IMG/VR virus record: IMGVR_UViG_3300022562_000309
Span: 1-41,095 of that record
DNA: 41,095 nucleotides
DNA from: a virus
Reading direction: 5' to 3' (one strand)
The position numbers and the translations under genes were made by a program. The notes beneath the pieces were generated by a model. It ran no database searches. It had not been told where the DNA came from and saw only the letters and a list, made by a program, of their open reading frames with translations. This document shows positions 39,318 through 40,195 of the stretch, piece after piece. Position 1 is the first letter of the stretch. Every line of letters begins with the position of its first letter.

Positions 39318-40064
39318 CTACTTGCCAGCGGCCACGATGTCGCCACGTCCGGCTGCGCGGCCAACGGTCTTGTCCTCGTGGGCCTCCAGGTTGGCCCGGA
39401 ACGTGTCAGCGATGGTCAGGGTCTCGACCATCTCGGCTCCGGCCTTGTCGATGGCTGCCAGGTCGGCCTTGGTGATCTCGTCGGCGGCCTGCATGGTCTC
39501 GCGCAGGGCCTTGATGGCGTCGGCTGCGGCCTTGGCTGCGGCCTTGACGGTGGCGGCCTTGTCGTCGGCCTTGTCGCCCTCGTCGGCCTTGTCGTCGGCG
39601 GTCTCGGCCTTGGTCTCGGCCTTGGTCTCGGCCTTGGCCACGATGGCATTGTGCAAGACCTTCCAAGCGGCCTGCGCTGCCTTGTCCTCGTCGGCCTTGT
39701 CGTCGGCTACCGAGAGGGCGGCGTCCGTCGCGGCCATTCCGGCGGCCTTGATGACTTGGTAGACGGCCAGCGGTCCGGTTCCGTCCACCAGTTTGGAGTT
39801 GCTGGCATAGGTCTCGACGAGCGGCAGGTCCTCGAGAATCTCACCCGTCGCGGCCAGGTAGCCGACGTGAGACAGGACCTTCCGGTAGCGGTCCGGCGCG
39901 ATGGCCCGGGCCACGTCCGACTTGGACAGGCCACCTTCCGAGATGGCCGCGTGGAATGCGAGGGCAGCGGCCCGCCGGGTGTCGTCCACGTCGAGAGTGC
40001 CCACCCAGGCCTGGTTCGCCTTGATGGCCTGATCGATCGCTTGTGCGTTGGTCGTGCTGGTCAT
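39318..40064 (-). CDS. HTH plus Ala/Lys-rich protein; nucleoid-structuring or regulator candidate
   Basis: A 248-residue protein, first in the leftward arm, with its own promoter candidate and terminator and so a single-gene unit. The N-terminal half carries RRAAALAFHAAISEGGLSKSDVARAIAPDRYRKVLSHVGYL, whose centre (GLSKSDVARAIAPDRYRKVL) fits a helix-turn-helix. The C-terminal half is low-complexity Ala/Lys/Asp/Glu (AKAETKAETKAETADDKADE), partly encoded by three perfect 12-bp repeats (39601-39636), with long helical stretches. HTH plus extended charged helix recalls KfrA-type or histone-like proteins. It is flanked by palindrome copies 15 and 16, so it is a candidate binder. GGAGGGACC precedes the ATG. 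Role inferred. Confidence 0.7.
   Translation of the reverse strand: MTSTTNAQAIDQAIKANQAWVGTLDVDDTRRAAALAFHAAISEGGLSKSDVARAIAPDRYRKVLSHVGYLAATGEILEDLPLVETYASNSKLVDGTGPLAVYQVIKAAGMAATDAALSVADDKADEDKAAQAAWKVLHNAIVAKAETKAETKAETADDKADEGDKADDKAATVKAAAKAAADAIKALRETMQAADEITKADLAAIDKAGAEMVETLTIADTFRANLEAHEDKTVGRAAGRGDIVAAGK
39601..39636. repeat. Three perfect 12-bp tandem repeats
   Basis: GTCTCGGCCTTG repeated three times, encoding the AETK units in the charged tail of gene 39318-40064. Likely variable in copy number between relatives. Confidence 0.85.
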
Positions 40065-40115
40065 GGTCCCTCCAAGGGTCCTGGTCTGCGGGGACTTTCC
40101 CCGCCACCGAGACCC

Positions 40116-40144
40116 ATTCTTCCACCTCGCCAAGCGCTTGTCTA
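40116..40144 (-). promoter_or_regulatory. Candidate leftward promoter of gene 39318-40064
   Basis: Minus strand TAGACA (40139-40144), 17-base spacer, AAGAAT (40116-40121), close to the sigma-70-type TTGACA / TATAAT pair. The predicted start near 40109 would give a leader of about 45 bases. Palindrome copy 16 lies 36 bases upstream of the -35. Confidence 0.5.
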
Positions 40145-40180
40145 ACGGTCCGAGATGAGGCCTGTCACGGACTCGGAACT

Positions 40181-40195
40181 GTTCACTGGGTGAAC
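40181..40195. repeat. Dispersed palindrome copy 16 (sense centre CCA)
   Basis: GTTCACTGGGTGAAC just upstream of the leftward promoter candidate. Confidence 0.9.

Follow-up and report, generated by a model that had tools for sequence, protein, structure and literature searches.

The window analysed here is the whole stretch of 41,095 bp of an IMG/VR viral record. The first and last 144 bp (1-144 and 40952-41095) are identical, which makes it probable that the record covers a whole genome of about 40.95 kb. The large terminase opens the rightward late genes, with its ATG at 40739 and its frame reading across the contig join, and transcription of the right arm runs leftward. The first gene of this leftward arm is ORF 39318-40064 (minus strand), which faces the terminase. 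The best-conserved stretch of the arm (29730-34340, minus strand) carries PD-(D/E)XK nuclease, Rad52-like, HNH and SSB genes, whose products are 25-49% identical across relatives, and most of the remaining leftward-arm genes have no homolog in relatives. On the plus strand, an ORF of 2085 aa (3848-10105) is weakly similar (20-24%) to large ORFs in the G019/G021/G022 group. No integrase, ParA (AAA_31) or known repressor family was found in the window genome, which leaves a lysogeny role without other support. HTH_3 and HTH_17, two common HTH families, had no match there either.

ORF 39318-40064 is a real gene. Its ATG at 40064 is preceded 4 nt upstream by GGAGG, a strong ribosome site, and its codon usage is like that of the other genes of this phage (log-likelihood +0.43 per codon, GC3 0.88). 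The five alternative frames have negative codon log-likelihoods, and the open frame 5' of the ATG looks non-coding by codon score (-0.44). A promoter and a terminator of its own, claimed for this gene in an earlier sequence-only reading, were both recovered as candidates. A sigma-70-like promoter, TAGACA-N17-AAGAAT, lies at 40144-40116 on the minus strand, as a match to consensus only (one found vs 0.2 expected in shuffles). A perfect 14-bp stem 3' of the stop codon (39277-39309, minus strand; -43.7 kcal/mol, z -5.4) is a probable terminator without a U-tract, and because it has no T-run it is absent from the terminator-scan list.

The gene encodes a protein of 248 aa, a candidate dyad-binding regulator, with 25% Ala overall. 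The long charged tail described earlier is indeed present and Ala-rich, and the protein continues from an Ala/Lys/Asp/Glu-rich linker into a predicted helical C-terminus. Residues about 46-69 (LSKSDVARAIAPDRYRKVLSHVGY) look HTH-like by eye only, and the HTH-like N-terminus of the sequence-only reading was not confirmed, with no Pfam or PHROG HTH match. AlphaFold2 single-sequence models placed helices at residues 48-54 and 57-72, but with low confidence (mean pLDDT about 43). A position-specific matrix made from the HTH-like segments of relatives did not single out the protein, but this matrix failed its own leave-one-out check, so that its outcome counts neither for nor against an HTH. The suggested likeness to KfrA found no backing from the KfrA N-terminal Pfam family at E values up to 10 or from phmmer, and no similarity to ParB was detected by Pfam or phmmer. 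Searches of PHROGs, Pfam, phages, plasmids, viral contigs, genome contigs and PDB returned no significant homolog, the best PDB match by phmmer being 2ns0 (E 0.32). When we ran tblastn against 50,697 phage records, there was no match at E 0.1, and no homology to the L5-type repressor was detected.

The palindrome (dyad) GTTCAC-N3-GTGAAC occurs in 17 exact copies in the window, compared with 0.012 expected under a third-order Markov model, and dinucleotide shuffles gave 2.35 matches even with two mismatches allowed. The looser pattern TTCA-N5-TGAA recovered just the same 17 sites and no degenerate ones. All 17 cores have 6-bp arms, and 11 have the full 7-bp arms, TGTTCAC; the full-length 17-bp site is CTGTTCACCCAGTGAACAG. 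A literature search for the dyad sequences as text gave no match. We rejected the host SOS box as the identity of the dyad, CGAAC-N4-GTTCG being absent from the window. SOS-box-like copies of that motif were seen in the divergent region by the terminase in G007 (IMGVR_UViG_3300035682_000067, 41018 and 41070), G019 and G021.

Two of the dyads flank ORF 39318-40064. One, GTTCACTGGGTGAAC at 40181-40195, lies 117 nt 5' of ATG 40064, and the other, at 39219-39233, lies 20 nt 5' of ATG 39198, the start of the next leftward gene. Both had been noted earlier as palindromes on either side of this gene; they are exact, but they are not private to it, being two of the 17 genome-wide copies. Since the dyads form a phage-wide set, flanking alone does not single out ORF 39318-40064.

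The distribution of the dyads is uneven. Thirteen of the 17 lie leftward of the terminase start, and seven of these 13 stand 10-27 nt 5' of a start codon that has a ribosome site. In addition to the copy before ATG 39198, these are found at 39018-39032 (15 nt 5' of ATG 39002), 38560-38574 (20 nt 5' of ATG 38539, a short ORF), 37430-37444 (20 nt 5' of ATG 37409), 37071-37085 (17 nt 5' of ATG 37053), 33175-33189 (10 nt 5' of ATG 33164) and 31328-31342 (27 nt 5' of ATG 31300, the Rad52-like gene). Further copies lie within the 397-aa gene 35860-37053 (36313-36327), right at the beginning of the small gene that ends at 34340 (34462-34476), within the PD-(D/E)XK nuclease gene (30269-30283), in the convergent region between the arms (28783-28797) and in the divergent region 5' of the terminase (40555-40569). 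The others are located within the terminase gene (1219-1233), within the small gene 3483-3848 (3603-3617), close to where the gene at 13644/13740 starts (13662-13676) and 17 nt 5' of ATG 19673 (19641-19655). When nine phages were pooled, 32 of 83 leftward dyads were 8-30 nt before an SD-led start, where random positions would give 6.9 (z 10); these counts are approximate because the start calls are mechanical. The dyads are also oriented: among the window sites with an asymmetric central triplet and a clear transcription direction, 10 of 11 have the same orientation, the sole exception being the copy at 36313. For seven phages combined, the centre orientation relative to transcription gave p about 0.0005.

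We then compared the dyads of the terminase relatives, whose terminases are 39-56% identical and were collected from two scans. The exact window dyad was absent from them, and most carry a private genome-wide dyad of their own that differs in sequence and spacing. The repeated-dyad scan covered a wider sample and was followed by a scan with shorter arms, G003 having been missed at arm 6. The dyads found were GTTTCTAC-N-GTAGAAAC in G026 (10 copies), GTGACAC-N-GTGTCAC in G027 (13-14), GTTCAGA-N-TCTGAAC in G029 (18-24; also written GTTCAG-N3-CTGAAC; GTTCAGAGTCTGAAC), AACCGACC-N2-GGTCGGTT in G030 (7-8), TTCCCA-N4-TGGGAA in G007 (4), CCCCCA-N2-TGGGGG in G004 (4) and, in G003, eight copies of GACA-N2-TGTC inside a longer imperfect dyad resembling CTAATGRGACA-N2-TGTCTYATTAG. 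The G019/G021 group is distant, with a terminase 24% identical, and G019 and G021 have eight copies each of an exact 17-bp repeat (arm TGTTCGG) that is common to them and the Cluster O mycobacteriophages. Shuffled genomes mostly reached 1-2 copies at best in the scan for any repeated dyad, and 30 unrelated stretches used as a control reached 1-4. Two unrelated contigs, L055 and L056, have other dyads in four copies each (TCCCAC-N-GTGGGA and GTGTTC-N7-GAACAC). No repeated dyad was detected in G002, G006 and G032, shorter arms included, and GC-rich repeats obscure the scan of G033.

The sequence-only reading would expect an autoregulated global regulator at the head of the leftward arm, and this argument from position was strengthened by the comparison. 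In those terminase relatives whose contigs reach far enough upstream, a leftward gene of like layout, about 190-300 aa long, is kept near the terminase; this leaves aside G033, in which no gene of this kind was noted, and G005, where the contig ends. In the dyad-bearing phages this syntenic gene is accompanied by a dyad on its upstream side, its downstream side or both; for G029 the adjacency was read off the coordinates of dyad and gene. The upstream copy is 117 nt before the ATG in the window, 114 nt in G007, 123 nt in G003 and 99 nt in G027, and it is 21-24 nt upstream in G026, G019 and G021. No exact dyad was found upstream of the gene in G004 and G030. G030 was joined end to end even though it showed no terminal repeat, and the adjacency in this phage alone depends on the join.

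The 248-aa protein has no detectable similarity to any of the syntenic proteins, and homology among them is detectable for three pairs only (G019/G021, G003/G030 and G006/G032), so that a full alignment was tried and set aside as not meaningful. We therefore infer from position and layout that the syntenic genes are one family. The three homologous pairs are concordant in dyad status: G019 and G021 have identical dyads, none was found in either G006 or G032, and the dyads of G003 and G030 both have N2 spacing and a GAC half-site core. Across the relatives the dyad sequence turns over, but a similarly laid out gene persists by the terminase.

The dyads, their placement and their turnover between relatives are solid observations. 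To account for them, we tentatively propose that ORF 39318-40064 encodes a fast-diverging, self-regulating DNA-binding protein whose action on the dyads would resemble that of Cluster A repressors at stoperators, a proposal that we rate at close to an even chance. The 248-aa protein, probably as a dimer, would recognise the 17 copies of GTTCAC-N3-GTGAAC and would control its own expression through the site 117 nt 5' of ATG 40064. At the sites 10-30 nt before leftward (early-type) starts it would slow or block leftward transcription, with repression of elongation as the presumed outcome. Position, flanking sites, fast divergence and the concordance of the three homologous pairs all point to the product of this gene, and its binding to the dyads is the best single explanation, if one held a little short of probable. 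The main difficulty is that G002, G006 and G032 have the syntenic gene without a detectable repeated dyad; perhaps these phages rely on single operators or on sites that do not repeat, or perhaps the binder is not the product of this gene. Further points stand against the binder reading. Cluster O and the G019 group have the same dyad, yet their candidate proteins show no similarity in sequence, the gene has no exact dyad upstream in G004 and G030, and the window protein has neither a detectable homolog nor a confident HTH.

Here, we need to weigh other explanations of the dyads. First, they might be bound by another phage product or by a host regulator, and ORF 39318-40064 might do something else, for example as a structural, takeover or nucleoid-like protein; we consider this rather unlikely but a serious contender. 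The HTH of the 248-aa protein is unproven, dyads flank many other genes, right-arm proteins such as those of 34781-35047 and 32096-32470 could be DNA-binding, and the authors who described the Cluster O repeats suggested gp53, gp76 and gp90 as binders (PMC4351075). However, for most of the other right-arm proteins the dyad-bearing relatives have no homolog, and where a homolog exists the protein is conserved while the dyads change; the conserved Rad52-like, nuclease, HNH and SSB proteins are unlikely to explain the changing dyads. The lack of HTH_3 and HTH_17 matches in the window genome also speaks against another binder. Second, the dyad might act as RNA, in the form of a tight-loop hairpin of 6-8 bp just 5' of the ribosome site that controls translation or mRNA processing, like a start-associated sequence. 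The narrow spacing to the start codon (10-30 nt) and the biased centre orientation would fit such a role, both of the two dyads tested fold as RNA hairpins, and the start-associated sequences of Cluster K are a precedent for start-linked repeats (PMC3203893). Nevertheless, the arms are invariant at 17/17 sites, with no compensatory or G-U variants, which indicates base-specific recognition, and some dyads are inside genes or 117 nt from the start, so that we judge the RNA explanation improbable. Finally, we regard it as very improbable that the dyads serve replication, partition or packaging, as iterons or parS do, and not gene control: an unrelated 139-kb contig does have an iteron-like cluster (L029:6718-6860) of six near-copies of the same GTTCAC-type 15-mer in a gene similar to DnaD-like replication initiators, but that is a different setting, the window sites being dispersed over 40 kb, start-linked and unclustered, and no ParA was found in the window genome.

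We also compared the window with known repeat systems of phages. phiC31 is like the window in having a single long dyad repeated genome-wide, which was recovered here in 15 copies as TACTCACGTGAGTA; its conserved inverted repeats are presumably linked to the c repressor. The phiC31 dyad is a perfect 14-bp palindrome without a spacer, in contrast to the N3 spacer of the window, and phiC31 c is annotated at 2,052 bp. The start-associated sequence of Cluster K, a non-palindromic 13-mer (GGGATAGGAGCCC) located 3-7 nt before the start codon (PMC3203893), resembles the window dyads in being start-linked, mostly at non-structural genes, and in one orientation. The dyads differ from it in being palindromic and in standing 10-30 nt away (10-27 nt in the window).

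Another such system is that of the Cluster A repressors. There, a repressor site precedes the repressor gene, and the stoperators are oriented with transcription and covary with the repressor (PMC6550527, PMC9283540). As in the window, where 10 of 11 asymmetric centres agree, many sites are spread genome-wide and oriented with transcription; the stoperators are mostly intergenic, and every phage group pairs a site of its own with a cognate repressor. On the other hand, a stoperator is an asymmetric 13-mer bound by a monomer whereas the window site is a dyad of 15-17 bp, no homology between the L5-type repressor and the window protein was detected, and no lysogeny gene was recognised in the window.

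In Cluster O, 34 copies of TGTTCGG-N3-CCGAACA were described in Corndog, with the three binders named above suggested (PMC4351075). We recovered 34 Cluster O sites (TGTTCGGTTTCCGAACA) in Firecracker. Like the window, Cluster O has invariant arms, a 3-bp spacer, many copies that are densest in the leftward arm, and no integrase. Its arm is TGTTCGG, as in the G019/G021 group, vs TGTTCAC in the window, and according to their published description its sites lack a close tie to starts and show little orientation bias, whereas the window dyads are start-linked and oriented. At the right genome end of Firecracker, gp128 (L042:35516-36229; 237 aa, phrog_11142) shares with the window protein an Ala/Lys-rich tail, an HTH-like stretch by eye and the right-end position; the layout is alike, but there is no detectable sequence homology. 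Corndog gp122 is at the equivalent place, and relatives of gp128 in the phage collection are confined to 31 Mycobacterium phage records, Cluster O phages included. Firecracker gp128 is a further candidate binder of the Cluster O repeats. It is possible, although less likely than not, that these phages without recognised lysogeny genes, with a fast-diverging regulator by the terminase and private dyads of varying arms and spacing before early starts, have a specificity system on dyads that is like that of repressor and stoperators, which would also name Corndog gp122 and Firecracker gp128 as candidate Cluster O binders. If true, they would supply matched pairs of protein and operator, a series made by nature, in which to study the evolution of DNA-binding specificity. 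The 17-bp repeats of Cluster O were described in 2015, and dyads of this kind now prove to be common in a group of uncultivated phages, in which they are start-linked and oriented.
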